Shown here: piece after piece, positions 8,606-62,418 of the stretch
Numbering within the stretch: position 1 is the stretch's first letter
How the letters are laid out: each line of letters begins with the position of its first letter
Translations under genes and position numbers: made by a program
Notes under the pieces: model-generated
The model's database searches: none
What the model saw: only the letters and a program-made list of their open reading frames with translations
What the model was told of the DNA's origin: nothing
From: Verrucomicrobiota bacterium
Lineage (GTDB): Bacteria; Verrucomicrobiota; Verrucomicrobiia; Verrucomicrobiales; Verrucomicrobiaceae
Direction: 5' to 3'
DNA: 64,000 nt
Assembly (NCBI GenBank): GCA_009885695.1
Contig: VFKE01000056.1
Location: 42,603 to 106,602, forward strand

Positions 8606-9331
8606 CTACCAGATGCCAAGTTCTTCCAATGCCCGCGTGACGTTGCCGGCCCAGTCCTTGTTCGCGGCAGGACTCGCAGGACTCGGATGCAAGATGCGCG
8701 CGATTTTCAGATTCGGAAAATGGGGCTGCAATAGTTTAGCGCGCCCTTCAGCGAAACCGCCAACTCCAATGAGCCACTCCGGCTGGAGAATCTCCACGAC
8801 GCGACGCAAATGATCATCACAGGCGGCGAACACAGGTTCCATCTCCCGCGCAATGATTTTGTCCGGAGTAAGGTTGGCGCCAGTCTCTGACATGAAAACA
8901 AGCGGACAGAAGTTGGCGACAAAATGATCCTTGAAAAAATTTATGGCAGAACCGTAGCGCTGAGCGAACAAGCCCCATAACCTGCGGCCGCTGACTTCGC
9001 TTTTGGGGCAGTCAAAACCAAGGATGGGACGCTTCGGATGCTCGCGCGCAGGCTTGCCGACAGCCTCGCGGATGCCCATCCAGTCGCGCACGGCCGCAAT
9101 CTCCCCAAAGGGCACACCGGTTTGGGCCATGCCAAAGGGACCCGGGTTCATGCCGAGAAAGATAATTTTCTTCAATCCACCACCGAAACGCGAGAGGTAG
9201 GCTTCATGCGATGCACGGGCATAGTCGAGCGGATCATAAACATGCGTGACCGGATCGCTGAAGCTCAAGCTCCGCAGCGCATCCGACAAGGAGCGGGCGG
9301 CGTCGGTCAGCGTCTCGCGTTGAACTACCAT
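8606..9331 (-). CDS. SMUG1-like uracil-DNA glycosylase
   Basis: IIFLGMNPGPFGMAQTGVPFGEIAAVRDWMGI is the SMUG1 motif-1 signature; LHPSPASPAANKDWAGNV is the C-terminal catalytic motif. Confidence 0.9.
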   Translation of the reverse strand: MVVQRETLTDAARSLSDALRSLSFSDPVTHVYDPLDYARASHEAYLSRFGGGLKKIIFLGMNPGPFGMAQTGVPFGEIAAVRDWMGIREAVGKPAREHPKRPILGFDCPKSEVSGRRLWGLFAQRYGSAINFFKDHFVANFCPLVFMSETGANLTPDKIIAREMEPVFAACDDHLRRVVEILQPEWLIGVGGFAEGRAKLLQPHFPNLKIARILHPSPASPAANKDWAGNVTRALEELGIW

Positions 9332-11271
9332 TTGCTGCCCGGATTCTTAAAATAATGTTCTGCGAGCTTCAGGGCCTGACTGGCGTGCTGGTCTGGGGAC
9401 ATGATGAATGGCCAGATGATGACCTCGCGAATGTCCCCGGTGAAAAGCATGTTGGGTGCGGGTGGACGCGCGGGGTTGGTGACTGCCTCGGACACATTGA
9501 TTTCGCTAAGCGCGGACCAGCCAGGAGGCATGATACATTCGCCAGATGATTTTCCGCCGTCGGTGCCGCTCCGCACTGTAAGTGTGATTTTTTTTATCTC
9601 GGGATCCAGGCGAAGACTGACCAGGCTAAAAATGTTTGTGCTCCGGTCACCAACCTTGCACTCATAGGCAAGTTGCTTTCCCTTGGGCGGCTGAGCGCTG
9701 GCCTTGGCTCGGAACTCATTATTAGGAAACGCCTGCAATTGGATCCATTCATTATTGCCCTTGTTATGAAGTCGCAAAATTGTCACTTCTTTGTTGGTTA
9801 TCCGGGGTCGAACAATCAAAAAAATCGTCATTCCCTTGTCTTTCACGTTTTTGCCGAACGGATAGTCCTTCACATCACCCGGACTGGCCACGTGGAACAT
9901 GCATTTACCGGCATCGAAGCGCAACAGGCTGATCTTTTTCTTAAATTCACCAGGCTGTTCGACGATTTGCATCGGGCAATTCTCCCTACGCCGGTCGCAT
10001 GCGCCGAGAACGGCATCGCCGGCAGCAGGTGAAAGATCGCGCCAGCTCAGGATCAGACTACCGGACTTCGCAGGAGAAATGGTTGCGCCAGCTTCAGACC
10101 AAGCCTCCATTTTTTCACCGGAAACCCAATGAATGATGGAGCCATCCACAATTGCATCAGCCGGTGGTGCTCCGAGCAAGCCCGCTGATTCACCATACAT
10201 TTTTATAAACAAAAAAGTACCGCCGCCTATGAGCACGAAGATGCCAATGACGATGTAGAGCCATGCCAGGCTGTTCTTGGCACGAGGCAGCGGTGATGCT
10301 TGGAATAAATTATTCTCAGGCTGTGCCTTCGGCTGAAGTGAACTCGTAGTGCGCGGCGATAATGTTCCCGTCGCGGGACGCGCCACGCTGCTGGAGATCG
10401 AAGCAGCCGGACCATCTCCGATGGCGGCGGGTTCGCTGATCACTCCTTCCGCAGCGAGACCGCGCAGTGAGTCAAGCGCCTGCTGCGCATTTGCGGGCCG
10501 ATCCCCTGGATCGCTGTTCATCAGCCACATCACCCAGTCGCAGAGTTGTGAAGGTAGATCAGAACGTAAATCATGCAGAAGTGTGACTTGATGCTTCAGA
10601 TGCATGTCCATCACCCCGGCCACTGTTGCCGCCTGGAATGGACGTTGTCCGGTCAACGCCTGATAATAGACACAACCGAGCGAATACAAATCCGTGCGAC
10701 CATCCAGCGGTTTACGCAGGAACTGCTCTGGTGCCATGTAGAAAATGGAACCGAGGATGTGGCCACGATGGTCCTCGGTCTGCTTTTTCGCGCCATACGA
10801 AAGCCGGGCGAGACCGAAGTCCACGATCTTGATCTGCAACCGCCCCCCGGGCAGCCGTTTCACCTTCATGTTCTCGGGTTTCAGATCGCGATGCAGGATG
10901 CTCTGGCCGTGCGCGGAGAGCACGCCTTCGAGCGTCTGGGTGGCCAGTTCATAAAAGTCTCCAATGCCAACCTTGCTGCCCAGGATCCAGTCGGAGAGCG
11001 TGTCGCCCTCCAGAAGCTCCATCACGATAAACAGGCCGTTCTCATCGCTGGCCAGATCGTAGATGGTGACGATGTTCGGATGCTGCAGCGTGGCGAGCGA
11101 TGCCGCCTCATTCTTTAGGGCCGACGACTGGGTGTCCTGCTTCTGCTCCTCTTCCTTGGTGAGCAGCCGTTTCAACGCGACGTAGCGGTTGAGCTGCGTG
11201 TCGTAAGCCTTGCACACCGAGCCGGCACCGCCCGCGCCAAGCTCTTCAAGAATTTTATAGCGACCTGACAT
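9325..11271 (-). CDS. Ser/Thr protein kinase with TM segment and C-terminal LamG/concanavalin-like region
   Basis: Intact kinase motifs: LGAGGAGSVCKAYD, VALKRL, ILHRDLKPENMKVK, KIVDFGLARL, MAPEQF; TM LAWLYIVIGIFVLIGGGTFLFI; beta-rich C-terminus. Confidence 0.88.
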   Translation of the reverse strand: MSGRYKILEELGAGGAGSVCKAYDTQLNRYVALKRLLTKEEEQKQDTQSSALKNEAASLATLQHPNIVTIYDLASDENGLFIVMELLEGDTLSDWILGSKVGIGDFYELATQTLEGVLSAHGQSILHRDLKPENMKVKRLPGGRLQIKIVDFGLARLSYGAKKQTEDHRGHILGSIFYMAPEQFLRKPLDGRTDLYSLGCVYYQALTGQRPFQAATVAGVMDMHLKHQVTLLHDLRSDLPSQLCDWVMWLMNSDPGDRPANAQQALDSLRGLAAEGVISEPAAIGDGPAASISSSVARPATGTLSPRTTSSLQPKAQPENNLFQASPLPRAKNSLAWLYIVIGIFVLIGGGTFLFIKMYGESAGLLGAPPADAIVDGSIIHWVSGEKMEAWSEAGATISPAKSGSLILSWRDLSPAAGDAVLGACDRRRENCPMQIVEQPGEFKKKISLLRFDAGKCMFHVASPGDVKDYPFGKNVKDKGMTIFLIVRPRITNKEVTILRLHNKGNNEWIQLQAFPNNEFRAKASAQPPKGKQLAYECKVGDRSTNIFSLVSLRLDPEIKKITLTVRSGTDGGKSSGECIMPPGWSALSEINVSEAVTNPARPPAPNMLFTGDIREVIIWPFIMSPDQHASQALKLAEHYFKNPGSKW

Positions 11272-17208: not shown

Positions 17209-17785
17209 TTCTACGCAACTCTCATTACAGTGGCGAGCCATTCGGCTAGCGATCACGACCGTTGTGATCTTGATGGCTTCCCTTTTCGTGAAAGGGTCGG
17301 TTTTCCCGGTATTGCGCCCCAGTTGTTGCATTGCCGATATGGGTATCTCATGTTCGTCATGTGGCATCACTCGAAGCATTACTTCGATTCTGCATGGCGA
17401 TTTTGAGAGCTCTAAGGCGTTTCATCAAGGTGGCATATTTCTAGTTACGCTAGTTGCTGTGTCACTTGTTTCGAGGCCGTTACCATACCTATTTCCGTCT
17501 TCAAAGTTCATAGCATTGGACGCACTTGCATTCGTCATTGCTTGGATCATATTATCAATAATATTTTTCGGTGCGCCTGGCTCAGGATATAGAGGAATCC
17601 AAGCCGACGGTTGCAGGATAAGCGAAAGAAAGAGGACGCAGAACCAGGCTTTCCAACCGACGCCGAGGACGGCGCGGTTGAAAGCCGACATTCGGCTAAA
17701 TCGGCCCAAACGTTTTTTCCCGCACGGCAACGATGGCGTCCAGCATGCTCTCCGCCTCCGCACGCAATTTGGTGTCGAGGCTTGA
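17189..17785 (+). CDS. DUF2752-like membrane protein; C-terminus reads into a hairpin repeat
   Basis: CCIADMGISCSSCGITRSITSILHGDFESSKAFHQGG resembles the DUF2752 CPxCGxTR motif; C-terminal NQAFQPTPRTARLKAD is encoded by a palindromic segment. Confidence 0.5.
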   Translation: MRIISSNSTQLSLQWRAIRLAITTVVILMASLFVKGSVFPVLRPSCCIADMGISCSSCGITRSITSILHGDFESSKAFHQGGIFLVTLVAVSLVSRPLPYLFPSSKFIALDALAFVIAWIILSIIFFGAPGSGYRGIQADGCRISERKRTQNQAFQPTPRTARLKADIRLNRPKRFFPHGNDGVQHALRLRTQFGVEA

Positions 17786-18082
17786 GGTTGCGCGATTGTA
17801 GCGGCGATAAAGCAGGGCCAGCCGGGTTTTGATCTCGTCTTTGGTCATTTTTGTGTTGATGCCGCAAAGTTGTTCGGGCGACTTCTTGGATTGACCGACC
17901 CTTGGGCTTGAAGACGGGGCGCTGATCCCGCCGGTGGTGGCGCTCAGCGTGGCACTGATTTTATCCAGAAGGCTGCGCGCTTTTTCCGAGGTCTTTTTTT
18001 TGGCGCTGACCCAGGAACCGGGCTTGGCATCCTCTTTGCTGGCAAGTGTCTCGCTGATGGACTGAAATAATTTCTTAAACAT
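17696..18082 (-). CDS. Small protein downstream of DnaK-like gene; possible degenerate J-like C-terminus
   Basis: MFKKLFQSISETLAS..., C-terminal GINTKMTKDEIKTRLALLYRRYNRATSSLDTKLRAEAESMLDAIVAVREKTFG. Starts 26 bp after the upstream CDS. Confidence 0.55.
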   Translation of the reverse strand: MFKKLFQSISETLASKEDAKPGSWVSAKKKTSEKARSLLDKISATLSATTGGISAPSSSPRVGQSKKSPEQLCGINTKMTKDEIKTRLALLYRRYNRATSSLDTKLRAEAESMLDAIVAVREKTFGPI

Positions 18083-18108
18083 GATGGATGGGGAAAGTTT
18101 ATGGAGAG

Positions 18109-19596
18109 CTACTCGATGCGAAATTGCCGCAACATCGAGCCTCGCTTGAGCAGTTCCTCCTCGCTAAGGATGCCCGCGCCCTTGTAGGTGACTGCGACTT
18201 CCTGTGAGCGGCCGCTTTGTTTGTCCATCACCAGAGCCCGGACGCGCTGATTCTCGTCATAGCTGTAGGTGACGGCAATTTCGCAGCCCGCCACGCGGTC
18301 CGGCGGAACCTCCAGCGTGATGCGCCCGATCACATCCACAAAGCGCGGATCCGTATCCTCGCCCTGGGTGATGTCGACTTCGATGACCCGCTCATTGGCC
18401 TCGGAGGTCGTGTAAACCTGGCTCATGGAACAGGGAATCGGCGTGTTCTTGGCGATGACGATGGAATTTTTCACGCCTTCCTCGCCGGTCTTCGAGTTCA
18501 CGACATAAGCCAGGGTGCCGTAACTCTGGTTGCAGACTTCACGGATGCGCGCCGATCTCTTGGCGAAGATGGCCGCGCCTAGCGCGACTGCCTCGTCAAC
18601 GTTGCCGCAGGACTTGGGAGGGCTGCCGAAGAATTTTTCCAATGCCGTCTTCACTTTAGGAATGCGGGTGCTGCCGCCCACCAGCACCACATGTTCGATG
18701 TCGCCCGGCTGCAGTTTCGCGCTGGCGAGCGCTTGCTCCACCAGCATGATCGCGCGTGTCAGCAGTCGCTGCGCGATTTTCTCGAAATTCTCTCGCGTGA
18801 GATCGATACGGGCAATGCCATCCGTGTCGTTGCCGATGGTGTCGTGCACGCGATGGAGTTTGCTGAGCATCTTCTTCGCATCTTCTGCGGCATGCAGCAC
18901 CCTGCGGCGCTGGCGCTCGTCCTTGAAGAGATCGGCATTGACCTGGCTGCGGTATTGCGCGGCGTAGATATCGAGAAGCAATTCGTCAATATTTGCGCCG
19001 CCGAGATGGCGCGCGCCTTCACTGGTCAAGATGCGGATGTTTCCGCCTTCCACCTCCAAGATAGTGACATCCAACGTGCCGCCGCCCATGTCGAACACGA
19101 GCACACGACCGTGCACGCCCTGGGTCTGCGCATAGTAAACTGCGGCTGCCGTCGGTTCGTTCACCAGTCGTCGCACCTTCATGCCGGCCATCTCTGCTGC
19201 GGCGATGGTGCTCTTGCGCGCCAGTTCGTTGAAGTTTGCCGGCACGGTGATGACCACTTCATGGATGTCACCGATGATGCGCGAGCACTCGCGTTTGAGC
19301 TTCGACAGGATCAAGGCGGATATCTCCGCCGGTGTCCACTTGCGGCCGTCGATCTCCACAAAGTATTCCGGGTCGTCCATGTGACGCTTGATCTGGAAGA
19401 CCGTCCGCTCCGGATCACCTCCGTCGCGAGCGGCGCTGCCGACGAGTTTCACCTCTTCGTGGGAATCAAAAAAGACCACGGAAGGAGTGAGTCGTTCGCC
19501 GTCCGCATTGGGCACGATTTCCGGATTGCCGTCGGGCTTGAGGTAAGCCAGGCCGGAAAGAGTGGTGCCAAGATCGATTCCTACGTGTTCAGCCAT
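18109..19596 (-). CDS. DnaK-like Hsp70 with shortened C-terminus
   Basis: GIDLGTTLSGLAYL, VITVPANFNELARKSTIAAAEMAGMKVRRLVNEPTAAAVYY, LVFDMGGGTLDVTILE, VVLVGGSTRIPKVKTALEKFFG. 495 aa, ends near the SBD-beta with no obvious lid. Confidence 0.93.
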   Translation of the reverse strand: MAEHVGIDLGTTLSGLAYLKPDGNPEIVPNADGERLTPSVVFFDSHEEVKLVGSAARDGGDPERTVFQIKRHMDDPEYFVEIDGRKWTPAEISALILSKLKRECSRIIGDIHEVVITVPANFNELARKSTIAAAEMAGMKVRRLVNEPTAAAVYYAQTQGVHGRVLVFDMGGGTLDVTILEVEGGNIRILTSEGARHLGGANIDELLLDIYAAQYRSQVNADLFKDERQRRRVLHAAEDAKKMLSKLHRVHDTIGNDTDGIARIDLTRENFEKIAQRLLTRAIMLVEQALASAKLQPGDIEHVVLVGGSTRIPKVKTALEKFFGSPPKSCGNVDEAVALGAAIFAKRSARIREVCNQSYGTLAYVVNSKTGEEGVKNSIVIAKNTPIPCSMSQVYTTSEANERVIEVDITQGEDTDPRFVDVIGRITLEVPPDRVAGCEIAVTYSYDENQRVRALVMDKQSGRSQEVAVTYKGAGILSEEELLKRGSMLRQFRIE

Positions 19597-19623
19597 CTTT
19601 TTGTCGTGGTAAAATATGTGATT

Positions 19624-22600
19624 TCAGCGCGCTAATGATTCACTGGATGTCTTCACTTCGACCTTCCGAAGAACCACCTCGCGGCCGCCTCCGCCTGAAT
19701 ACAGGAAACCCGGCCTGTAGCTTTCGACGACCTTGGGCCGGGCCGGGCCCGACACGCTTTCGACAATCGCGATGCGTTGGCGAAGATCGACGTCCACCTC
19801 GGTGCCTGGCGCCACCTTGAACTCCTCGATGCCGTGTTGATCGAGAATGTCCTCAAAACTCGCCCGCAGTGTTCGCAATTGCTGATCCATTCCGCCATTG
19901 ATGCCAGGGCCGGTAACGCGCTGAATGAGGATGTCGATCAAATCGATGCGTTTAATGAGGTCGTTGGCAAAAAGAATAACGGTCTTCTCGTCCATGTTCG
20001 CGTGCAGGCTCCGCCTGAGGACTTCGTGCTTCTCCTCCAGTTCGCGCACGCGCTCCTTGAGCTTCATGGTCAGCGCAATTTCAGCTTGCTTCGCGTCTTC
20101 GGTCACACGGTGCCTTGCTTCCTCCAGGTCGCGCCCGGCTTTTTCCAGCGCACAGGCGCGGTCCTCTTCTTCCTGCCCGCGCTCAAGCCGGATTTGCTCC
20201 AGACGCTGTTGCTCCTTCGCGACGGATTCATTCAGGGCGTTCAGCTTCAGTTGCTGGGAAAGCTCCTGCTCCGCAGCCTCGCTCAAATGACGGCTGGCCA
20301 CGCGCTCCTTGGTTTCCATCATCGCCAGGGCTTCATTGAGCGAAAGCAGCTTGTCACCACTGTGAAGAAGCTCGGCATAGCGGGATTCATTGGCCGCTAT
20401 CTTGTTCAGCAATTCTTCGAGGGAAGCATCTCCGCGCTGAAGCCGCTCCCGGTTCGTCTGCAAACTCGCGGCGATCCCATCCTCCTCACGACGCAGGCTC
20501 TCGACTTGCTTCGTGAGCTCCGCCACCTGGCCAGTCAGTGTAATTTCACGCTCTCCAAGGCTTCCCTGCAAATCGGCGAGACGTTTCTCCGTCACTTCCA
20601 CTCCGCCTTGGGCCATTTGCAACCTCTTGCCTTCAAGGCTGATTTGATCACAAATCTGCCGGAGTGATTCCTCGCCTTTTGCGCACTGTTCCCGGAGCGC
20701 ATCAAGCCGGTGCGTCGCATCCACAATTTCCTGCTGAGTAACAGTCGCCAGCGCCTTGAGTTGAGCGGAATGTTCTTCCTCCAAAGTGCGCCGCGCCACC
20801 AACTCGCTCAAATTGTTCTGCGTCGCGGCCTCCTCCAGGCTCAATGCAGCACTCGTGGCACGAATGGATTCTGCTTCAGCCTTGGCTGCCTGAAGCTCCT
20901 GCGTGATCCCGGCATGTGCCTGTTCCACATGAGCGAGATTTTCCCGCTCGGCGGCAAGATGTTCCTCCAGTTCCGCGAGTTCGGCCAAGCGCTCTTGCGC
21001 TGCTTCGGCAGCCATGGTTTCACGCGCTTGTTCATCAGCTATCTCGTGCTCGATCCGGGCCAGGTCCTGGCTGAGCGCCCCTTTCCGCGCCGTCAATGCG
21101 TCAAACGTCTGCAACTCCTCCAGTCTCTGCTTAGAAATGGAATCAAGTGACACCTGTGCCTTTAGGATTTGTTGCTCGATGTCCTTCAGCTCGTTCGCAC
21201 GCCGTTCGAGCATGGTCAGTCGCTCGGCAGCCTGGGTCACTTGATTCATGGCATCTTGCGCTTCTTTTTGCTTGGAAGCCAGCGTGGCGAGGAGGACCGC
21301 AATTTCATTTCGGACTCCTCCGGCACGGTTGGTTTCCAGTTCAAGGTGATCGCGCGTCTGCTGGAGCCGCAGTTTCTCGGCCTCGTGTTCGCGTCGCAGT
21401 GTGGCCAGCGACTGGCCATGGATCCCAGCCTCATTCTGCAAGCGCAGGAGTTCCTGATGCAGAGCCTCACGCTCCTTTCGCACCGCTTCCGTTTTCGTGC
21501 GGACATCGGACTCCATCGCCCGCGTTGCAACTAGTGAATCCTTCGCCCCAACGATGCGTTGTTCGATTTCACGGTGCTCTTCGAGCCTCTGTTCCAACTC
21601 AAGGCATTTTATCTCCGCGGCGGAGAGCCGCTTCCCGGCTTCCGCGAGTTCAATGCGTTTGGCCTCCAAATTTTCAGCATTCTCCCCGAGCTGTTTTTCC
21701 ATCTTGGCGAGACTATCCTTGCGTGCCGATTCCTCATCTGCGAACTTTGCCGCTGCTTCGGTGAGTGTGACGTGTCGCTCCTCCAGTCTGGCGACAACAG
21801 CGGATTTCTCGGACACCGTAGCAACCAGGGCGTCGAGCTTGGCCTGTTGTTTCTTTGCCTCAGTCTCGGCTGCAACGGCATGCGATTCGGCCACTCGATG
21901 CCGGGCGGCAGTTTCTTCCAGCCGTTTTGTCACGGCGGCATGCTGCGACTTCACCTCTTTATGTTCCGCGAGATGCTTTTCCTTCGCGTTGGCGACCGCC
22001 AACATTTCGGCGCGATGTGTTTGCAGATCCTCCGCCGCCTGCGCCACTCCCGCGCGGGCTATTTCCAGTTCCGCCTGATGAGCGGCAGATTTACCTTCGA
22101 GTTCCGCCGTGCGTGATTCAACTTCAGCCAAACGCCTGGTTGCATCCTCCAAAGTGCGATCAAGCGTCGCGACATTTTCTTCGAGACTGGCGCGCTGTTT
22201 GGAAAGTGTCTGGATGAGCGCGTGCTGGGCACCACCTTGCTCGGCAAGGGCGGCGATCTCATGCTCCTTGTCCACGCGCTGGCGTGTCAGGGATGTGATG
22301 GCTCCCTCCAGCACGCCTTTCTGCTCCTCGGCCAGTGTGAGAGCGTTCACTGCTTCTTTTAGCCGTGATTCAGTCGCAGTAAGGGCGCGTAGCTTGGTGT
22401 TTAAGTCCTCCTCGCGTCGCGTAAGCCGGGTGATGCGTTCCTCGATGACCAGCGCAGAACTTTCCTTGTCCGCCAAGTCACGCTCAAGTTCACTGCGCCT
22501 AACAGAAAAATTCAACTCGACCTCACCATTAATTTTGCACAATTCTTCATAGCGCGTGCGAGCTCCCGCCACTTCGACATTAATGGTCCCGACTGATTTT

Positions 22601-25131
22601 TTGAGCTCCTCTTCCCGTGCGACAAGTTCCTTGATCTCACTGTTCCGTCGTTCACGTTCAGCCGACAGAGCGCCGATCTCCACTTCGTGTGCGCCGCGCT
22701 GCGACGTCAACTCTGCGATCAGCCCCTCCAGTTCAGCATGCTTCGTTTCGTGTCCGGAGATCTTGTCCCGCAGACCCGCAAGATTTTTTTCCGTTTCTGC
22801 CAGAGCGGCGGTCTTGCTTTCCAGGTCGGCGTTCCGCGCCTCCAACTCCCGCAAGCGCTTGCTTGCCTCATTGAGCGACGATTGCTTTGCGGCGAGGGCG
22901 GCGTCGAATTCTTGAGCCTTGATCGCGTGGGATTTTTGCAGCTCAGCCTGCTGTCCCGCAAAGTTCCGTTGAGCCCCGGTGAGCGCGGCCCTGGCTTCGG
23001 TGGTGCTTTTTTCCAATGCGACCCGCTCATCTTGCAGCAGGGAAAGTTTTTGCTGTGTTTCGACGAGTTCTTTCCTGGCCTCACTGTGGCCTTCCGCAGT
23101 TTCATCGACCTGTTTTCGCACCTCTTCATGGGCCATCTTCAACTCCAGCAGCGCAGCTTCCGCAGCGGACTGTTGTTCATTGACGAGCGTGAGCGCCTTG
23201 GTGGCCGTGGCCAGATGGCTGTCGGTCGCAGCCAGTTCTTCCATCCGCTTCTCGGCTGCAGTGCGACGGCCCTCGATTTCCGCAACTCCACGTTCGACTG
23301 CTTCAAGCTGTTGGTGGCGCTTGGAGATCGCCTCATCAAACTCGTGTTTTTCAGACTCCAATTGCTTTTGCTGCCGGGCAACCTCCTCTTTGGAATTCTT
23401 AATCAACGCCTCCAGCTTGATTTGCTCCGGCTGGAGTGACTGGATTCTCGCTTCGGCACCAGCCTGAAGCTGGCAGGTCTGCTGCAACTTTGCTCCTGCT
23501 GCTGCCTGCTGCTTCGCTAATGTCGCGCGCTCCTGATGAGCCGCTTCGATCCTGGCAAGCAATTCTGCATAATCCTTTTCCTGTGCGCTACGTTGCACGG
23601 CCAGGCCCTCCAACTCTTTTGCGTGAACGACGCGTTCGCGGTTGTGGCTTTCAAACTCCTGGCGCGCGGCCACAAGTTTCGTGGCGAATGCGGCCAACTC
23701 CCCTTCCTCCGCAGCACGCGTGGCGGAGAACTTCTCAAGTTCCCTGGCATGATCGGCGCGCTGGCCAGCGAAGCGCTCGACTTCATGCTGCGTCGTATTG
23801 AGCATCGCAATGAACTCTGCGTGCTCTTTTTCCATGGCCGCACGCTCGACAGAGAGCTGTTCGAGTCTCTCGGAGTGTTCATTGCGCTGTTGGGTGATGC
23901 CCTCGATTTCCTGGCGGGCGATGCTGATCTTCGCGACAAGCCCGGCATGTTCTTCCTCCCTGGCCGCGTGGTCGGCAGAGAGCTTCCCGAGTTCCCTCTC
24001 GCGATCGTCACGCTGAACGGTGAGTCTCTCGACTTCCTGACGTGTTGCATTGAGTTTCGCGATGAACTCCGCGTGCTCTTTTTCTTTGGCTGCGCGCTCG
24101 CTGGCAAGTTTTCCCAGCTGAGCGTTACTTTCAGCATCCTTGATGGAAGCAGCAGCAGCGGAATCACCTTCCTTGTGCAACACGACAAGCCGCTCCTCCG
24201 CAGCCTTGATATCGCGCGCGAGTCCTGCAAGGCGTTCTCCGGCATTTTTTGATTCATTCGAGACGCGCTCGTGATTTTTTCCCTCGACCTCCCGTTGTTC
24301 GGCAATCTGCTTCCGGGCTGCTTCACTTTCCTGGCGCAGTGTTTCGAGTGCCAGCCTGGCAGCAGCCGCTTCTTTTTTTACGTGGTCAAGTTTTTCGTTT
24401 TCATCGCGCAGATGTTGGAGCTGCACCTGTGCCTCGACGATTCCAGCTTTGAGCGCCGCATGTTGTTCCCGCAATTCTTGGGGGTCACCCTTGGCGTTGG
24501 GTGTGGGCACGGGGACAGTCGGTTGGGTCGGGTGTGGAGTGGTGCCAGCCGACTGATGCTGAGTCGGAAGCAGTGGAGTTTTGGCGACGATTTGTGAAAG
24601 AACGGACACTGTCCTGGGAATGGTGGCGCCTGCCACAGGTGCCGGGCTCGTGGGAGCAAGCGCTTGAACCTTCGGACCGAGTGTCGTCGATTCGCTGAGA
24701 GGCGATGGGGCATCCGTCGGCGCCTTCCGAAGCGGGATGAATTCCGTTTGGGGTCCGGGACCTTCGATGCTCTCGGCATCACGGCGTTTATCTTCCGCAC
24801 TCGGGGACGAACCCTTTTCTTCCCGATCAGGGCCGGGAAGATGGGTATCGCGGAAGCGCGCCTCAAGCTGCCCGAAGCGAACTTTGTCGCCCGGCTTCAG
24901 TTCGGCGCTTTCGACGCGCCTGCCATTGACGTAGGTGCCGTTGGAGCTTTTGAGGTCGGTCAGCACGTAAGCGCCGCCAGGTTGGCGGGCGAATTCAGCG
25001 TGGAAGCTGGAAATTTGATTATTGTCGATGACAATCTCGTTGCGCGGGTTGCGGCCAAGCGAGAGTCTTTCTTCGAGCAGATCGAAGATGAACTCATTGC
25101 CGTCATTGAGATTAAACGCGAGGTAGGGCAT
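19624..25131 (-). CDS. 1835-aa FHA domain / giant coiled coil / C-terminal GrpE-like fusion
   Basis: N-terminal FHA: ERLSLGRNPRNEIVIDNNQISSFHAEFARQPGGAYVLTDLKSSNGTYVNGRRV; long E/K/Q/A-rich coiled coil; C-terminal FANDLIKRIDLIDILIQRV...LEDILDQHGIEEF-type segment followed by RPGFLYSGGGGREVVLRKVEVKTS. Confidence 0.88.
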   Translation of the reverse strand: MPYLAFNLNDGNEFIFDLLEERLSLGRNPRNEIVIDNNQISSFHAEFARQPGGAYVLTDLKSSNGTYVNGRRVESAELKPGDKVRFGQLEARFRDTHLPGPDREEKGSSPSAEDKRRDAESIEGPGPQTEFIPLRKAPTDAPSPLSESTTLGPKVQALAPTSPAPVAGATIPRTVSVLSQIVAKTPLLPTQHQSAGTTPHPTQPTVPVPTPNAKGDPQELREQHAALKAGIVEAQVQLQHLRDENEKLDHVKKEAAAARLALETLRQESEAARKQIAEQREVEGKNHERVSNESKNAGERLAGLARDIKAAEERLVVLHKEGDSAAAASIKDAESNAQLGKLASERAAKEKEHAEFIAKLNATRQEVERLTVQRDDRERELGKLSADHAAREEEHAGLVAKISIARQEIEGITQQRNEHSERLEQLSVERAAMEKEHAEFIAMLNTTQHEVERFAGQRADHARELEKFSATRAAEEGELAAFATKLVAARQEFESHNRERVVHAKELEGLAVQRSAQEKDYAELLARIEAAHQERATLAKQQAAAGAKLQQTCQLQAGAEARIQSLQPEQIKLEALIKNSKEEVARQQKQLESEKHEFDEAISKRHQQLEAVERGVAEIEGRRTAAEKRMEELAATDSHLATATKALTLVNEQQSAAEAALLELKMAHEEVRKQVDETAEGHSEARKELVETQQKLSLLQDERVALEKSTTEARAALTGAQRNFAGQQAELQKSHAIKAQEFDAALAAKQSSLNEASKRLRELEARNADLESKTAALAETEKNLAGLRDKISGHETKHAELEGLIAELTSQRGAHEVEIGALSAERERRNSEIKELVAREEELKKSVGTINVEVAGARTRYEELCKINGEVELNFSVRRSELERDLADKESSALVIEERITRLTRREEDLNTKLRALTATESRLKEAVNALTLAEEQKGVLEGAITSLTRQRVDKEHEIAALAEQGGAQHALIQTLSKQRASLEENVATLDRTLEDATRRLAEVESRTAELEGKSAAHQAELEIARAGVAQAAEDLQTHRAEMLAVANAKEKHLAEHKEVKSQHAAVTKRLEETAARHRVAESHAVAAETEAKKQQAKLDALVATVSEKSAVVARLEERHVTLTEAAAKFADEESARKDSLAKMEKQLGENAENLEAKRIELAEAGKRLSAAEIKCLELEQRLEEHREIEQRIVGAKDSLVATRAMESDVRTKTEAVRKEREALHQELLRLQNEAGIHGQSLATLRREHEAEKLRLQQTRDHLELETNRAGGVRNEIAVLLATLASKQKEAQDAMNQVTQAAERLTMLERRANELKDIEQQILKAQVSLDSISKQRLEELQTFDALTARKGALSQDLARIEHEIADEQARETMAAEAAQERLAELAELEEHLAAERENLAHVEQAHAGITQELQAAKAEAESIRATSAALSLEEAATQNNLSELVARRTLEEEHSAQLKALATVTQQEIVDATHRLDALREQCAKGEESLRQICDQISLEGKRLQMAQGGVEVTEKRLADLQGSLGEREITLTGQVAELTKQVESLRREEDGIAASLQTNRERLQRGDASLEELLNKIAANESRYAELLHSGDKLLSLNEALAMMETKERVASRHLSEAAEQELSQQLKLNALNESVAKEQQRLEQIRLERGQEEEDRACALEKAGRDLEEARHRVTEDAKQAEIALTMKLKERVRELEEKHEVLRRSLHANMDEKTVILFANDLIKRIDLIDILIQRVTGPGINGGMDQQLRTLRASFEDILDQHGIEEFKVAPGTEVDVDLRQRIAIVESVSGPARPKVVESYRPGFLYSGGGGREVVLRKVEVKTSSESLAR

Positions 25132-25207: not shown

Positions 25208-26029
25208 TTGACCATGACAGCCCCCCTCTTGCCGACCGCATCGACACCAACCACCCCAGTTTTTTGCACGGCGATCTTCGGTTTAATCCTGTTGCAAGCA
25301 TCCATTGGAGTCGCAGCCGAGCCCAGTGGCGCGGAACTGGATCGCATCGGCCGGCGCATCTGGCAGAGCGAATGTGGCGGCACCGTGGAGGGGCTGACGA
25401 GCTGGAATGCAGGGGAGAACTTTGCCTCACTCGGCATCGGCCATTTCATCTGGTATCCGAAGGGTGTGCAGGGGCCGTTCGAGGAGAGCTTCCCCAAGCT
25501 GATCACCTGGTTGAAAGCGGAAGGCGTGAACCTGCCGCCGTGGCTGGCTGAGGGCAGGAAGTGTCCGTGGCTGGACAGAAAATCATTCGATGCCAGCCAT
25601 CACGGCACGCAGCAGAAGGAACTGCGCACGCTGTTGTCGGGCACGATCCGCGCGCAGGTGCGTTTCATCATCCGCAGGTTGGAGGAAGCGGTTCCGAAAT
25701 ATCGTGCTGCCGCTGGGAAACAGGCGCAGCGAGTGGAACAGAATATTTCGCAACTGCGCCAGACTGCGGCGGGAAATTTCGCCTTGATCGACTACGTGAA
25801 TTTCAAAGGCGAGGGGCTCAATCCGAAGGAGCGATATCAAGGTGAAGGCTGGGGCTTGCTTCAGGTGCTTATCGAGATGGACAGTGACGGCAAGGCAACG
25901 CCCGCCGAGCGCTTTGCAAGTGCCGCCCAGCGCGTGCTGGCCCGGCGCGTAAGGAACAGTCCACCGGAGCGCGGCGAGAAACGCTGGCTGGAAGGATGGA
26001 AAAGCCGCTGTGCTGGGTATGCGGGTTGA
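25208..26029 (+). CDS. Secreted conserved protein, possibly lysozyme-like (function uncertain)
   Basis: Signal-like FCTAIFGLILLQASIGVAAEP; RRIWQSECGGTVEGLTSWNAGENFASLGIGHFIWYPKG. Confidence 0.45.
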   Translation: MTMTAPLLPTASTPTTPVFCTAIFGLILLQASIGVAAEPSGAELDRIGRRIWQSECGGTVEGLTSWNAGENFASLGIGHFIWYPKGVQGPFEESFPKLITWLKAEGVNLPPWLAEGRKCPWLDRKSFDASHHGTQQKELRTLLSGTIRAQVRFIIRRLEEAVPKYRAAAGKQAQRVEQNISQLRQTAAGNFALIDYVNFKGEGLNPKERYQGEGWGLLQVLIEMDSDGKATPAERFASAAQRVLARRVRNSPPERGEKRWLEGWKSRCAGYAG

Positions 26030-39312: not shown

Positions 39313-40905
39313 TTATTTAGCCTTGGCCTTGCTATCAGCCCCGGCGTCATTCGGTGTCTTGGTAGTGCTCTTATTGACCGGCGGCTTTTCGTTGTAGCTT
39401 TTCCACCAGGCTTCGATGGGCTGGACATCAAAGAGCTTGGCGTGATAGCCGGTCATCTGCTCGAAGCTGAACGTGGCCTCCGCAGCCACGTCGAGCGTCG
39501 GGTCAGTTTTGATCGCTTTGACAAGGGCATCTCCGACTTTTGTGCTGCGGCGCTGGCCGAGGTGCCATGCGGCCTTCACGCGCGTCTGCCAGGTCTGCTT
39601 GAGATCTTGGAGCACCTGGATGAGCTGATCGTCGCTGAGTTGCGCCGGCGCCAGCGCGGCGGATTCAGGAAAAATTTCTCCCACGGGAATCTGATGCTGC
39701 TGGATGCCGTGGAACTTCACCCGCTGACCGTTGATGTAGCAGTCCTGGACGCGGAGGATTTCCGCGCGTGCGGCGTGGACGAGGTTCGCAAGGCGCGGAT
39801 CCTCGATGGCGTCCCAGAGCCGTTCATACGGACCGCGCGCCCCGGTGGCGATGGCTTCGTCGGCGTAGGCGGTAAGCCGATTACGTTCCTTAAGCAGGAC
39901 AAGTTCAGTCTGCGAAGTAAACGGGGTTCCCTCAACGGCTGCCAGGGAAACCGGGGGCGCATCCTTCTTACTGTTGGACTTTTTGACTTCGTCAACGAGC
40001 GCGGAGAGCCCGGCCAGTTGCCTGGTGGTCTCATCGGCGAACTTCTCGGATACGATTTTATTTTTTTGCATGTCATCCAGCTTGGAACGTAGATCCGCGC
40101 TCTGCTTTTTCAGGTCATCAGTATCAATTGTCAGCCTGGTTACGATGGTATCGGAGGCGGAAGGGGAATGGACAACGGGCATGGCCGGAGTTGCCGGATG
40201 CAAGGTCTTGGCCAGCGATTCGAGTCTCTCCTCCAGATCGCTCCTGGTCTTGCTGTAAAACCAGATGGCACACATGAAAAACAGTGCCGCGTTTGCAAGC
40301 GCGAGGAGGAAGAACAACCGCAACAGGTAACCGGAGCGGAATTGATTGAAGCTGGACCCGGTACTTGGGAGTGGCGCAGGCTGGGTTGCCGGAGTCAGGA
40401 TGCTGACGGAGACGGTTTCAGCCCTGGCATCATTCAACTCGTCTGCGGGTGCGGACTGATTTTCCGGAAGTGTCCCACCGGCTTCTGGTTTCGCTCGCGA
40501 CATCGGTCCATCGAGGCTGGGATATTCCTGCAGTGCACGGCCGAAAGCAGCGGCGCTTGTGCCGTGAAGAAGTTGCAGAGGGATGTCATCCTGCAATGGC
40601 TGGGCCAGAGATGCTTGCAATCCCACAAACCGGACTTTAACCGGTCCGAAGCGTAACTCATCACCGGGTGACAGCTTCCGGGATTTGATCCGCCTTCCAT
40701 TGACAAAAGTTCCCTGAGTGGAACCAAGATTTCGAATCCAGCATTCTCCAACCGCATCGGCGGAAATACTGGCATGGCGTGGCGCTACGCCGGGATGCTC
40801 AAGAAAAATATCGGTGTTTTCATCACTGCCGATGGAGATATTGCCATTCACGGGCAACTCCAACGATTCCTCGCCGTTGCCAAAGTTAAGAATCAACATT
40901 GCCAT
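39313..40905 (-). CDS. FHA domain membrane protein
   Basis: ISIGSDENTDIFLEHPGVAPRHASISA...IRNLGSTQGTFVNGRRIKSRKLSPGDELRFG; TM LLRLFFLLALANAALFFMCAIWF. Confidence 0.85.
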   Translation of the reverse strand: MAMLILNFGNGEESLELPVNGNISIGSDENTDIFLEHPGVAPRHASISADAVGECWIRNLGSTQGTFVNGRRIKSRKLSPGDELRFGPVKVRFVGLQASLAQPLQDDIPLQLLHGTSAAAFGRALQEYPSLDGPMSRAKPEAGGTLPENQSAPADELNDARAETVSVSILTPATQPAPLPSTGSSFNQFRSGYLLRLFFLLALANAALFFMCAIWFYSKTRSDLEERLESLAKTLHPATPAMPVVHSPSASDTIVTRLTIDTDDLKKQSADLRSKLDDMQKNKIVSEKFADETTRQLAGLSALVDEVKKSNSKKDAPPVSLAAVEGTPFTSQTELVLLKERNRLTAYADEAIATGARGPYERLWDAIEDPRLANLVHAARAEILRVQDCYINGQRVKFHGIQQHQIPVGEIFPESAALAPAQLSDDQLIQVLQDLKQTWQTRVKAAWHLGQRRSTKVGDALVKAIKTDPTLDVAAEATFSFEQMTGYHAKLFDVQPIEAWWKSYNEKPPVNKSTTKTPNDAGADSKAKAK

Positions 40906-42959: not shown

Positions 42960-45900
42960 GTGCCCGTCACTTTCTCCATGAACAACGAGCGCCGCAAACA
43001 ATTCCCCTTCGATGAATTCGAGCCAAAATGGCAGCGGCTCTGGGAAGATGCCAAGGCTTTTCGCACACCCGGCCCGGGCGATGCCGATTTTGATTCCACC
43101 AAACCCAAATATTATGCGCTCGACATGTTCCCGTATCCTAGCGGGCAGGGGCTGCACGTGGGCCATCCGGAGGGCTACACAGCCACGGACATCGTCACGC
43201 GCTTCAAGAAGATGCGCGGTTTCAATGTGCTCCATCCCATGGGCTGGGACGCGTTTGGCCTGCCTGCGGAACAGTATGCCATCAAAACCGGCCAGCATCC
43301 GCGCACGACGACCGAGGCCAACATCGAAGGCTTCCGCGCGCAATTGAAGCGCCTCGGTTTCGCCTATGACTGGGAGCGCGAGGTGAACACGACCGACCCG
43401 GCTTATTACAAGTGGACGCAGTGGATTTTTCTCCAGCTCTATCATTCATACTTCGATGAGCAGACGAACCGGGCGCGACCGGTCAGCGAGCTTGAGGCTC
43501 AAGACTTGAAGCGTGAGGAAATTGATGCGCAACGTCTGGCCTACGTCAAAGAAGCTCCCGTGTGGTGGTGTCCCGAGCTCGGCACTGTGCTGGCGAATGA
43601 AGAGGTCGTCGATGGCAAGAGCGAAGTCGGCGGCTTTCCGGTTGAACGTCGCCCGATGCGCCAGTGGATGCTGCGCATCACCGCGTATGCCCAGCGTTTG
43701 ATTGATGAACTCGACGGCCTCAACTGGCCGGAAGGCATCAAGCTGCTTCAGAAAAACTGGATCGGAAAAAGCGAAGGCGCGGAAGTGCATTTCAAAGCGG
43801 CTGATCTCGATGAGACCATCACCGTCTTCACCACGCGACCGGACACGCTGTTTGGCGCGACCTACATGGTGCTGGCGCCAGAGCACCGGCTGGTGGATGA
43901 ACTTGTGAGCGAGGAACAGCTTGCGGAAGTTGAGCAGTATCGCGAACGCACCGCCCGCAAGAGTGATCTGGAACGAACAGAACTCGCGAAGGAAAAGAGC
44001 GGCGTCTTCACCGGCGCTTATGCCATCAATCCGGTGAACAAAGAGCGCATCCCGATCTGGATCGCCGATTACGTCCTCATGGGTTACGGCACCGGCGCCA
44101 TCATGGCTGTGCCAGCGCATGATGAGCGGGATTTTGAGTTTGCGAATAAGTTTGGGCTGCCGGTCCGGCAGGTGCTTCAAGGGAGCGCGGGCGTCTCGCC
44201 CGTGCAGACTCTTCAAAAAGGTGCCCAATTCACCAAACATCGCCGCCGCCTTCCGCACTGGCAGCAGGGTGAATGCGCAGTGTTCGTCACCTGGCGACTG
44301 GCAGACAGCCTCCCCAAGGAAAAACTCGATGAATGGAACTCAGAGCGCGAAGCCTGGAAAGCCAGCCATCCAGAGCCGTGGTCGGAACAATTTGAAGATG
44401 AGTATCACGCCCGCTTCAGCGACCAGCTGGACAAATGGCTCGATTCTGGAGGCGGCTCATGCGTGCTGAGAAGACCGGAGATTTCTGCGATTGTCGCCGG
44501 GGCGTTGAATCATTTTGATGGTGATCGCTGCACACTGCATGCAGCCGTCGTCATGCCGAATCACGTCCATTTGCTCTTTCAGCCTGTTGGCAATCACAAA
44601 ATCGAAGACATCATTCAAAGCTTGAAAAGTTTCACTGCGAAGCAGGTCAATAAACTTCTGGGATCCGAAGGCAGACTTTGGCAACCGGAGTATTTTGACC
44701 GTCTGGTCCGGAGTCTTCCGCACTTCGAGCGAGTCTCGCGATATATTTCTGAAAACCCGGTAGTGGCGGGTTTGCGTGAAGGTGAGTTTGTCTTGATCGA
44801 GAAATGCACGGGCGAGACGCCCGCGCTCCCTTATGAGAGTGACGGCGTTGCCGTGAACTCAGATTTCTTAAACGGTCTTGCTACGCCCGAAGCCAAGTCT
44901 AAAATCACCGCCTGGCTCACCGAAAAAGGCCTCGGCGCGAAAACAACGAACTTCAAACTCCGCGACTGGCTTTTCAGCCGTCAACGTTACTGGGGCGAGC
45001 CATTCCCCATCGTCTGGGAAGACGGTCATCATCGTGCAGTGCCGGAAAGCGAGCTTCCCGTCGTGCCACCGGACCTTGATGACTTCAAACCAACCGGCAC
45101 ACCTGAACCGCCGCTGAGCAAGGCAACGTCATGGGTGCGCTATTCTGAGAACGCAACTCGCGAACTGAACACGATGCCGCAGTGGGCGGGCTCATGCTGG
45201 TATTATCTGCGCTATTGCGATCCGAAGAATACGGAGCGTTTCATCTCAAAAGAAGCAGAAGCCTATTGGATGGGCGGAACAAATGTGAAATGCGGAATGC
45301 GGAATGCGGAATCAGTTTCAGCAATTCCAAATTCCAAATTCCAAATTCCAAATTCTACCAAGGGTGGCGTCGACCTCTACGTCGGCGGCACGGAACACGC
45401 CGTGCTGCATCTGCTATATGCGCGGTTCTGGCACAAGTTCTTGTTCGATCTCGGCCACGTCAGCACGCCAGAGCCTTTTCAACGCCTGGTGAACCAGGGT
45501 CTCATCCTCGGCGAAGACGGCCAGAAGATGTCAAAATCCCGCGGCAACGTGGTCAATCCTGACGATGTCATTCTCGAATACGGCGCGGACTCGCTCCGCC
45601 TCTATGAGATGTTCATGGGGCCGCTGGAGCAGGTGAAGCCCTGGCATATGCAAGGCGTGGAAGGCGTCTATCGCTTCCTCGCGCGCGTGTGGCGTCTCGT
45701 GCTGGAGGGCAATCAAGAGGGCGGCTGGAGCATCTCGCCGCAGCTTCAAGACGTGCTGACCGACAAAAAACTGAACAAGATCATCCACGAGACCATCAAG
45801 AAAGTCAGTGAGGACATCGAGAAGTTGAGCTTCAACACTTCCATCAGCCAGATGATGGTGCTGACCAATGCCTTCACCCAGGCCGAAGTGCGCCCCGCAA

Positions 45901-46250
45901 ATGGCGTGATGACGCTGCTGCAGACGCTCAATCCCTTCGCGCCGCATATCACCGAGGAACTCGCCGAGCGCATCGGCGGAGCCTTTCCAAAATTAAAGAT
46001 CAACGGCTCGCTCGCTCACCAAACGTGGCCGGAGTTCGACGCCTCCGCGCTCACCGAAGATGAAATGGAAATCGTGCTTCAGGTGAATGGCAAACTGCGT
46101 GACCGCCTCACCGTGGCCAAGGACATCGCAAAAGAGGAACTGGAAAAGCTGGCGCTGGCGAGCGCCAAGGTGATCGAATTCACCCAGGGTCTCACCATCC
46201 GCAAAGTGGTGGTGGTGCCGGGCAAGCTGGTCAACATTGTTGCGAACTAA
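42960..46250 (+). CDS. leuS: Leucyl-tRNA synthetase with in-frame RAYT insertion and heptad-repeat insertion (1096 aa)
   Basis: [109 protein letters not shown]. Start may be 42978. Confidence 0.97.
44179..44832 (+). mobile_element. In-frame REP-associated tyrosine transposase (RAYT / Y1_Tnp) insertion in leuS
   Basis: Y1 transposase motif [52 protein letters not shown]; bounded by perfect 28-nt inverted repeat aagggagcgcgggcgtctcgcccgtgca (44179-44206 / 44805-44832); length 654 nt = 218 codons. Confidence 0.92.
45291..45354. repeat. Opposed heptanucleotide repeats inside leuS
   Basis: (tgcggaa)3 then (attccaa)4; encodes [23 protein letters not shown] between YWMGGT and [23 protein letters not shown]. 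Confidence 0.88.
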
Positions 46251-49555: not shown

Positions 49556-49684
49556 ATCAACGCGTGATCGCCCCGATGAGCGGCCTCAAGTCTGTCGGCC
49601 TCAAGTCTTGCTTTTGCCAGGCTGCTGCTTCATGTTAAGGGGTTATTTTTGATAAATTGTCGTCGCTCCGCGAGGTTTGCCATC

Positions 49685-60480: not shown

Positions 60481-62418
60481 ATGAGCAAAATACTAGGCAT
60501 TGACCTCGGCACCACCAATTCCTGCATGGCCATTCTTGAAGGCAGCGAGCCCCAGGTGTTGGAGAACTCAGAAGGCGCACGCACGACACCCTCCGTGGTG
60601 GCCTTTACTAAAGCTGGCGAGCGTCTCGTCGGCCAGGCCGCCAAACGTCAGGCGGTCACCAACTCGCGCAACACCGTCTTCTCTGTGAAGCGCCTCATGG
60701 GCCGCAAGTTTTCTGAACTCACCGAGGCCGACAAACGCGTACCTTACAAGATCGTTGCCGCCTCCAATGGTGACGCCCATGTGGAAGTTGAGGCGGGTGG
60801 CGAGAAAAAAGTATATAGCCCGCAGGAAATTTCCGCCATGATCCTCGCGAAGCTCAAGGCTGACGCCGAGGCCCGCCTTGGTCAACCCATCACCGACGCC
60901 GTCATCACGGTGCCGGCCTATTTCAATGACTCACAGCGCAACGCCACCAAGGCGGCCGGCGAAATCGCCGGCCTCAACGTGCGCCGCATCATCAATGAGC
61001 CGACCGCGGCCTCGCTGGCCTATGGACTGGACAAGAAGAAAGACGAGAAGATCGCCGTGTATGACCTCGGCGGCGGCACCTTCGACATCAGTGTGCTCGA
61101 CATCGGCGACGGCGTCTTCGAAGTCATGGCCACGGATGGCGACACCCATCTCGGCGGCGACGACTGGGATAACACGCTCATCACCTGGATCGTTAACGAA
61201 TTCAAAACCGACACCGGCATTGATCTCAGCGGCCAGCCGGACGCGCTTCAGCGCATCAAGGAAGAAGCGGAAAAGGCCAAGATCGCGCTAAGTTCCTCGC
61301 AGAGCTACGACTTGAACCTGCCCTTCATCACGGCGGACCAGTCCGGGCCGAAGCATATCATGAAGACACTGACGCGGGCCAAGCTGGAGCAGCTTTGCGA
61401 CAGCCTCTTCGAGCGCACCATCAAGCCCGTCAAAGACTGTCTCGCTGCTTCCAAACTCGACGCCGCGAAGATCGATGAACTCGTGCTCGTGGGTGGCATG
61501 ACCCGCATGCCCCGCGTCATCGAGACTGCGCGCAAACTCGCGGGCAAGGATCCCCACCAAGGCGTGAATCCGGATGAAGTCGTCGCCATCGGCGCGGCCA
61601 TCCAAGGTGGCGTACTGCAAGGCAGCGTGAAGGACGTGCTCCTGCTCGACGTGACTCCGCTCACACTGGCCATCGAGACCGAAGGCGGCATCGCCACCGC
61701 GATGATCCCGCGCAACACCACCATCCCGAAGCGCCAGACGCAGACATTCTCCACTGCCTCGGACAACCAGCCCGGCGTCGAAGTCGTGGTCATCCAAGGT
61801 GAGCGTCCGCTGGCGCGCGCTGAAGGCAACAAAGTCCTCGGCACCTTCAAGCTCGACGGCATCCCGCCCATGCCTCGAGGCACAGCGCAGATCGAAGTCA
61901 CGTTCGACATCGATGCCAACGGCATCCTCCACGTCGCCGCCAAGGAAAAAACCACTGGCAAGGAAAGCAAAATTTCCATCGCTGGCAGCAGCGGCTTGAG
62001 CAAGGACGAGATCGAAAAAGCCAAGCGCGAAGCCGAACTGCACGCCGAGGAGGACAAGCAGCGCAAGGACGACGTCGAATCCAAAAACCAGGCCGAAACA
62101 GCGGTCTATCAAGTCGAGAAATCACTCAAAGATCTGGGCGACAAAGTCCCCGACGCCCAGAAGCAGCCGCTGCAAGATAAGATCGACGCGCTGAAGAAGG
62201 CCATCGCCGACAACGACCTCCCGGCCATGAAGTCTAAGCAGGAGGAGCTGCAGAAGCTCTTTGCCGAGAGTTATCAGCAAATGGCAGGAGCCGCCGGTGC
62301 TTCACCGGAGACGCAAACCACCAGCACGGGCGAAAATGGTCCTGCCGAACCCAAGCAGGACGAAGGCAAGGTGGTCGATGCCGACTTCGAGGTCGTCGAG
62401 AAGGACAAAAAAGCCTGA
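60481..62418 (+). CDS. dnaK: Chaperone DnaK
   Basis: [42 protein letters not shown]; full-length NBD, SBD and lid; C-terminal [15 protein letters not shown]. Confidence 0.99.

Follow-up and report, generated by a model that had tools for sequence, protein, structure and literature searches.

Within the window analysed here, a 64,000-nucleotide stretch of contig VFKE01000056.1 from a Verrucomicrobiota bacterium, lies a compact three-gene unit that is predicted from sequence and modelled folds to encode all three roles of the DnaK, DnaJ and GrpE chaperone team together, besides the housekeeping set of the same genome. The genome is a draft of Verrucomicrobiaceae type; the best matches that carry a name are Phragmitibacter, Verrucomicrobium, Prosthecobacter and Brevifollis. 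As an earlier note on this DNA had described, three same-strand open reading frames (ORFs) are present, with gaps of 27 and 26 base pairs between them:

19624-25131 (-): giant protein of 1835 amino acids, with FHA domain, coiled coil and GrpE domain (ORF)
18109-19596 (-): lidless Hsp70 of 495 amino acids (ORF)
17696-18082 (-): small J-like protein of 128 amino acids (ORF)

No sigma-70 consensus promoter was found in the region, an absence that carries little weight in this phylum. The earlier note had listed the last gene as a "small third protein"; the gene is there, and what went unnoticed was its J-like co-chaperone character. As a candidate co-chaperone that lacks the HPD motif, it would make the unit a complete Hsp70 triad.

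The giant protein can be divided as follows:

24832..25131 (-): FHA domain, residues 1-100 (Pfam PF00498 over residues 24-87; kept in relatives)
24457..24771 (-): Pro-rich flexible linker, residues 121-225 (residues 121-240 contain 20 Pro)
20062..24456 (-): coiled coil, residues 226-1690 (3.5-residue period, one Pro)
23446..24075 (-): approximately 4-5 copies of a 42-residue (6-heptad) repeat in the coiled coil (autocorrelation and listed copies)
19642..20058 (-): GrpE domain, residues 1692-1830 (Pfam, AlphaFold, Foldseek and profile match)

GrpE is the nucleotide exchange factor of DnaK, and FHA domains bind phosphothreonine. When the C-terminal segment serves as the query, PF01025 is matched with E=2.1e-6 and 27.9 bits against a cut-off of 25.8 bits, which places the domain in the GrpE family; the whole 1835-residue protein as a Pfam query gave no GrpE match, and the domain therefore needs a segment search to be seen. 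Structure prediction, which the earlier note had named as a check on its GrpE-like C-terminus, came out in favour of that claim. The AlphaFold model of the segment, built as a monomer with 46 relatives, has a mean predicted local distance difference test score (pLDDT) of 93 and shows the element order of GrpE, with a long helix (2-63), short helices and a beta domain. On comparison with 350,542 Protein Data Bank (PDB) chains by Foldseek, the top nine matches are all GrpE (E from 1.4e-5), and the first match of the segment's sequence profile is Geobacillus GrpE (4ani; E=0.013). The invariant positions R135, G159, R173, K174 and E176 (numbering of the modelled segment) cluster in the beta domain, with which GrpE touches Hsp70 in the complexes known, and some family members have diverged below the Pfam cut-off. 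On the strength of this fold, the domain would be expected to catalyze nucleotide exchange.

The remainder of the giant also bears out what had been read from it. At its start, the FHA domain is matched by PF00498 with E=2.2e-20, and the phosphothreonine-binding residues GR, SxxH and SNG can be read directly in the sequence. The coiled coil, previously estimated at ~1500 residues, spans residues 226-1690 with a single Pro; its hydrophobic periodicity has a power of 63.7 at 3.5 residues, the next peak being 5.7, and its autocorrelation peaks at 42, 84 and 140. If it forms one continuous helix pair, the computed length of the rod would be up to ~217 nm (0.1485 nm per residue).

The second gene encodes an Hsp70 in which the parts of the ATPase engine are conserved and the parts that connect it to the substrate domain are changed:

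18562..19596 (-): ATPase domain, residues 1-345 (PF00012, E=2.8e-102; catalytic residues kept)
18517..18546 (-): inter-domain linker IREVCNQSYG in place of DVLLLDV (conserved throughout 71 sequences of the family)
18151..18513 (-): substrate-binding beta domain, residues 362-482 (by alignment with DnaK of E. coli)
18112..18123 (-): C-terminal tail F-x-[IV]-E (comparable ends occur in distant phyla)

Positions are numbered on E. coli DnaK, with a reference sequence checked at landmark positions only. Catalytic residues D8, T11, K70, E171, D194, T199 and D201 are kept in 69-71 of the 71 family members, so that this is an actin-like ATPase of the Hsp70 family, in line with the intact ATPase domain of the earlier note. 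That note had seen no obvious lid, and the alpha lid of the substrate-binding domain is indeed absent, the sequence ending at about the lid start in alignment to E. coli DnaK. The positions at which J proteins dock are retained (R167 in 66/71, N170 in 71/71, T173 in 70/71). The equivalent of D393, used by canonical J domains, is lost, and in nearly all 71 sequences the linker reads V-C-N-[AHQ]-S and then Y where DnaK has VLLLD. With a hydrophobic linker of the DVLLLDV type missing, the protein is not a canonical DnaK, though still of the Hsp70 family; its score in the DnaK equivalog model (TIGR02350, NCBIfam) is 343.6 against a cut-off of 822.55 bits. The F-x-[IV]-E ending may possibly be a docking tail. 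The best phage matches to this Hsp70 have ~37% identity.

The third protein begins with an amphipathic helix and ends in a conserved domain of ~57 residues, the two being joined by a variable linker:

18041..18082 (-): N-terminal amphipathic helix (AlphaFold helix 3-14, low confidence; hydrophobic moment)
17708..17878 (-): J-domain-like fold, residues 69-125 (AlphaFold, Foldseek, profile alignment)
17789..17797 (-): NRA, residues 96-98, in place of HPD (same Gly spacing as DnaJ)

The N-terminal helix has the highest hydrophobic moment of all windows of the protein. For the C-terminal domain, AlphaFold predicts three helices with pLDDT >90, a short one followed by one of 18 and one of 22 residues, with a loop between the last two, and every one of the ten best Foldseek matches among the 350,542 PDB chains is a J domain; 5nro_B, a J domain bound to DnaK, also appears among the matches, with a template modelling (TM) score of 0.62 by target length. 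A PDB sequence profile search with the small protein yielded chance matches only, and Pfam no match. The first J set used with HHalign held wrongly framed sequences and gave no alignment; with the cleaned set, the families align in register (E=0.001 in this one comparison), the spacing from a conserved Gly to the motif being 22 residues in both the J-like family and DnaJ. In an ungapped block test, 0/2000 column shuffles scored as well, and offset 0 was the best of 25. What is missing is the HPD motif itself: it occurs in 0/74 small-protein sequences, and essentially all 74 have N-x-[small] at its position (NRS, NQA, NRA, NRG and others), for which reason we term the protein J-like and not a J protein. 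Its predicted fold and sequence suggest a J-like co-chaperone without HPD, new here.

A survey of related genomes, the second check that the earlier note had proposed, shows that the gene adjacency recurs across the family and order. Counts refer to 77 named loci, 65 of them with a full-length Hsp70; handles beginning with G and L are our own for genomes and loci. The J-like gene lies directly downstream of the Hsp70 gene in 64/65 loci, the sole exception being a contig that ends there (64/64 informative loci). GrpE is found upstream of Hsp70 in 54/65: in 45 it shares one ORF with FHA (44 by script, plus L085 with an over-long start), in 7 the end of the contig truncates the ORF that carries it, and in 2 the frame is split. 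No giant is adjacent in 9/65, one of these being the contig that ends at Hsp70. Six genomes with a non-adjacent arrangement (G004, G006, G014, G019, G034 and G053) carry a family GrpE elsewhere in a long open frame, and in G004, G006, G034 and G053 FHA, rod-length spacing and GrpE were confirmed. The Hsp70 itself is present in almost every Verrucomicrobiaceae-family genome sampled; searches of ~390 genomes of the phylum with the small protein and with the Hsp70, a sample made up mostly of other families, found only 2 genomes outside the family. Because the adjacency recurs at this depth and flanking genes do not, it is not a product of chance. Flanking genes are not common across loci, with the exception of a divergent secreted ORF beside the giant: in the window this is a conserved, probably secreted protein of ~273 residues and of unknown family (25208-26029, +), divergent from the giant in several genera, with no Pfam or PDB match. 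Similar ORFs adjoin the giant even where no Hsp70 is adjacent (G004, G012).

Together, the GrpE fold and the conserved adjacency give good support, as anatomy, to the dedicated Hsp70 machine with a tethered exchange factor that the earlier note had proposed; the exchange activity in that proposal is a reading of the fold. Nor does the unit replace the housekeeping machine. A canonical DnaK is encoded in this same window at ~60481-62418, the genome has a separate canonical GrpE, and the best canonical J protein adjoins that GrpE; the three-gene unit is therefore an addition. Elsewhere in this genome, another Hsp70 has a diverged J-domain gene close by (G000:C179:5542-7814), which suggests a second specialized Hsp70 pair. 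The earlier note had suggested that the unit may be linked to the Ser/Thr kinases of the window. The genome has nine kinase domains above the Pfam cut-off, two of them within the window and none in the conserved unit. The two Ser/Thr kinase genes of the window (9325-11271, -; 49649-52270, +) and a second FHA protein of 530 amino acids (39313-40905, -) were noted, with no evidence linking them to the operon.

Further afield, G225 (same class), G305 (same phylum) and a Rhodospirillaceae metagenome-assembled genome each have a GrpE-like gene, a lidless Hsp70 and a third protein whose C-terminal J-like domain is the same, and the Hsp70 end plus third gene is seen in SAR116 and Epsilonproteobacterial contigs; the spread outside Verrucomicrobiota is drawn from three loci. 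Four of five distant third proteins have a Pfam TerB domain ahead of the J-like domain, the order of DjlA. The distant J-like domain matches the window family with an HHalign probability of 98.9%, and the distant GrpE-like proteins match the window GrpE family with E=5e-6 and a probability of 86%. These GrpE-like genes have neither FHA nor a long rod, so that both look like a Verrucomicrobiales elaboration. In the Proteobacterial operons the GrpE-like and third proteins appear by sequence to start with hydrophobic, membrane-type segments. The lidless Hsp70s form one clade apart from DnaK (support 100/99) with long internal branches. The most economical history would be an old operon of GrpE, lidless Hsp70 and TerB/J-like genes, in which FHA and the rod were gained, and TerB lost, in Verrucomicrobiales. 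A plasmid search with the distant TerB/J-like protein gave no match, and with its Hsp70 only DnaK-type matches of ~35% identity. Two other arrangements were observed in passing. In two distant loci of different phyla, the TerB/J-like gene is followed by one for an M48-family peptidase (L148:11666-12733 and L077:2843-4000). At L151:7625-11928 an Hsp70 from outside the lidless clade has a possible GrpE-like gene on one side and, on the other, a protein that starts much as J domains do and carries an FGE-sulfatase domain; both resemblances, to GrpE and to J, were judged by eye only.

How might such a unit work? We consider it somewhat more likely than not that it is a dedicated Hsp70 machine that stands apart from the housekeeping DnaK, DnaJ and GrpE, with phosphorylation deciding where its private cycle runs. 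The lidless Hsp70 would be an ATP-driven peptide holder, and its exchange factor would be the giant's C-terminal GrpE domain. GrpE dimerises via long parallel N-terminal helices, and since its dimer stalk is a parallel helix pair (1dkg structure), an N-terminal coiled coil with distal FHA heads is geometrically natural: the coiled coil would prolong the stalk and carry two FHA heads at its distal end. Docking of these heads on a phosphothreonine protein would concentrate exchange and rapid substrate release around that protein, and in essence phosphorylation would determine the site of the cycle. The J-like protein may use its amphipathic N-terminal helix to bring Hsp70 to a membrane or a partner, the membrane being suggested because of the membrane-type segments of the Proteobacterial proteins. 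J-like protein and Hsp70 would be coupled by a re-evolved interface, N-x-[small] opposite the changed linker, in place of HPD; the parallel loss of HPD and of the linker through which it acts favours such a re-evolved pair, with a Pam16-type regulator not far behind. A fuller version, in which a self-contained Hsp70 cycle dispenses with HPD and the hydrophobic linker, combining co-evolved ATPase coupling with exchange delivered up to ~0.2 micrometre away by an FHA-headed GrpE-dimer rod that targets phosphorylated proteins, is put forward tentatively and with more doubt than belief.

Several observations count against this picture. The Foldseek E-values for the J-like domain all lie above 0.1 and are individually weak (best 0.19), so the case for the fold is made by the unanimous match list together with the sequence. 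In HPD, even a D-to-N or H-to-Q change abolishes ATPase stimulation; a designed HPD-less J analogue can work (both PMC13254874). Two of the 65 loci (L131:5503-8730 and L149:5613-8747) have an FHA-coiled coil protein without GrpE beside the Hsp70 and J-like genes, and genome G040, with this same arrangement, has no other family GrpE; tethered exchange is thus dispensable there. The single-contig genome G012 keeps the giant and has no Hsp70 of this clade. Between its conserved ends the giant ranges from 294 to 2388 residues across loci, so the rod measures no fixed distance. With GrpE lost in one lineage and rod length varying freely, the FHA-rod would seem to be of value in itself.

Among the alternatives, the one that survives best is a variant of the dedicated machine and is not exclusive of it: the J-like protein may be a Pam16-type pseudo-J regulator that restrains the cycle via Hsp70 or via a true J protein, with canonical DnaJ stimulating the ATPase. 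We regard this as quite possible, if short of probable, since the replacement of HPD is non-conservative in all members, Pam16 is itself an inhibitory HPD-less J-like protein (PMC13254874), canonical J proteins are encoded in the genome, and the Hsp70 docking residues R167, N170 and T173 are kept. However, the operon has no partner J gene, and the loss of the linker hydrophobics and the D393 equivalent in step with HPD is a better fit to a re-evolved pair. Less likely is a giant that functions mainly as a structural scaffold or filament, its GrpE-type fold only anchoring Hsp70 while the housekeeping GrpE performs exchange. The fast evolution of rod length, the persistence of FHA-coiled-coil proteins without GrpE beside Hsp70 and the divergence of some GrpE members below the Pfam cut-off would all suit a scaffold, but the five invariant residues cluster in the beta domain that contacts Hsp70 in known complexes, and the distant operons retain a GrpE-like gene without FHA or long rod. 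It would be more surprising still if the third protein were not J-derived and its short helix and helical hairpin resembled a J domain by chance; the weak Foldseek E-values, the lack of Pfam or PDB sequence matches and the first profile comparison, which with an uncleaned J set gave no alignment, are set against ten J domains at the head of 350,542 chains, an in-register profile alignment with a single best offset that no shuffle equalled, and a TerB domain that precedes the J-like domain in distant relatives as in DjlA. An anti-phage or other conflict system is very improbable and we reject it: GrpE, Hsp70 and DnaJ genes do appear in GAP1-N2 GTPase conflict systems (PMC7159879), but PADLOC returned no meaningful match, the unit has no GTPase, nuclease or other effector as a conserved neighbour, its flanks share only the secreted gene, and it occurs in almost all sampled family genomes, unlike patchy defence islands.

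One further gene of the window deserves mention. A leucyl-tRNA synthetase ORF of 1096 amino acids (42960-46250, +) has an insert that keeps the frame and carries a REP-associated Y1 transposase (PF01797), free-standing copies of which are numerous in this genome and its relatives. In one other genus (G011) a 1135-residue frame matches continuously through the insert at 70%; most relatives have leucyl-tRNA synthetase frames of ~870-930 residues, with matches that skip it.

Known systems share individual elements with the dedicated machine favoured here. In GAP1-N2 GTPase conflict systems, which include HSP70, GrpE and DnaJ-fused proteins, the Hsp70 and GrpE genes also stand side by side in a non-housekeeping locus, but no GTPase or effector accompanies the present unit, and the portion of that work consulted does not mention an FHA-GrpE fusion (PMC7159879). 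Pam16, with DKE or DKS, is likewise an HPD-less J fold attached to an Hsp70 system; unlike the small protein, for which there is no such partner gene, it acts at the mitochondrial translocon, where it pairs with Pam18 in a heterodimer (PMC13254874). DjlB and DjlC, which work with the diverged HscC, pair altered HPD motifs with a diverged Hsp70 too, although their change is the conservative HPE, as opposed to N-x-[small] with GrpE included here (PMC13254874). E. coli DjlA, a transmembrane-TerB-J protein that works together with DnaK and GrpE in Rcs signalling (PMC11709261), has its parts in the order of the distant third proteins, which run from a hydrophobic N-terminus through TerB to a J-like domain at the C-terminus; in contrast to DjlA, the family described here lacks HPD, is encoded alongside its own Hsp70 and GrpE-like protein, and has lost TerB in Verrucomicrobiales. 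In the open-licence literature, no published description was found of FHA, GrpE and DnaK fusions or of TerB with GrpE and Hsp70. Myxococcus SglK/GrpS is a possible precedent. With the canonical DnaK-DnaJ-GrpE system the unit shares an Hsp70 ATPase plus substrate domain, a GrpE-fold exchange factor and a J-type fold; it differs in its lidless Hsp70 with polar linker, its GrpE fused to FHA via a giant coiled coil, and its HPD-less J-like domain. In bacteria GrpE usually occurs as a small protein on its own, and J proteins are considered to need HPD in order to drive Hsp70. The present unit departs from both rules at once, and does so consistently throughout a bacterial order; the wider family of GrpE-like, lidless Hsp70 and TerB/J-like proteins extends to Alphaproteobacteria and Epsilonproteobacteria. 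The unit thus offers a compact system for two questions: the function of J-like proteins that lack HPD, and whether phosphorylation can direct Hsp70 exchange to a particular place.

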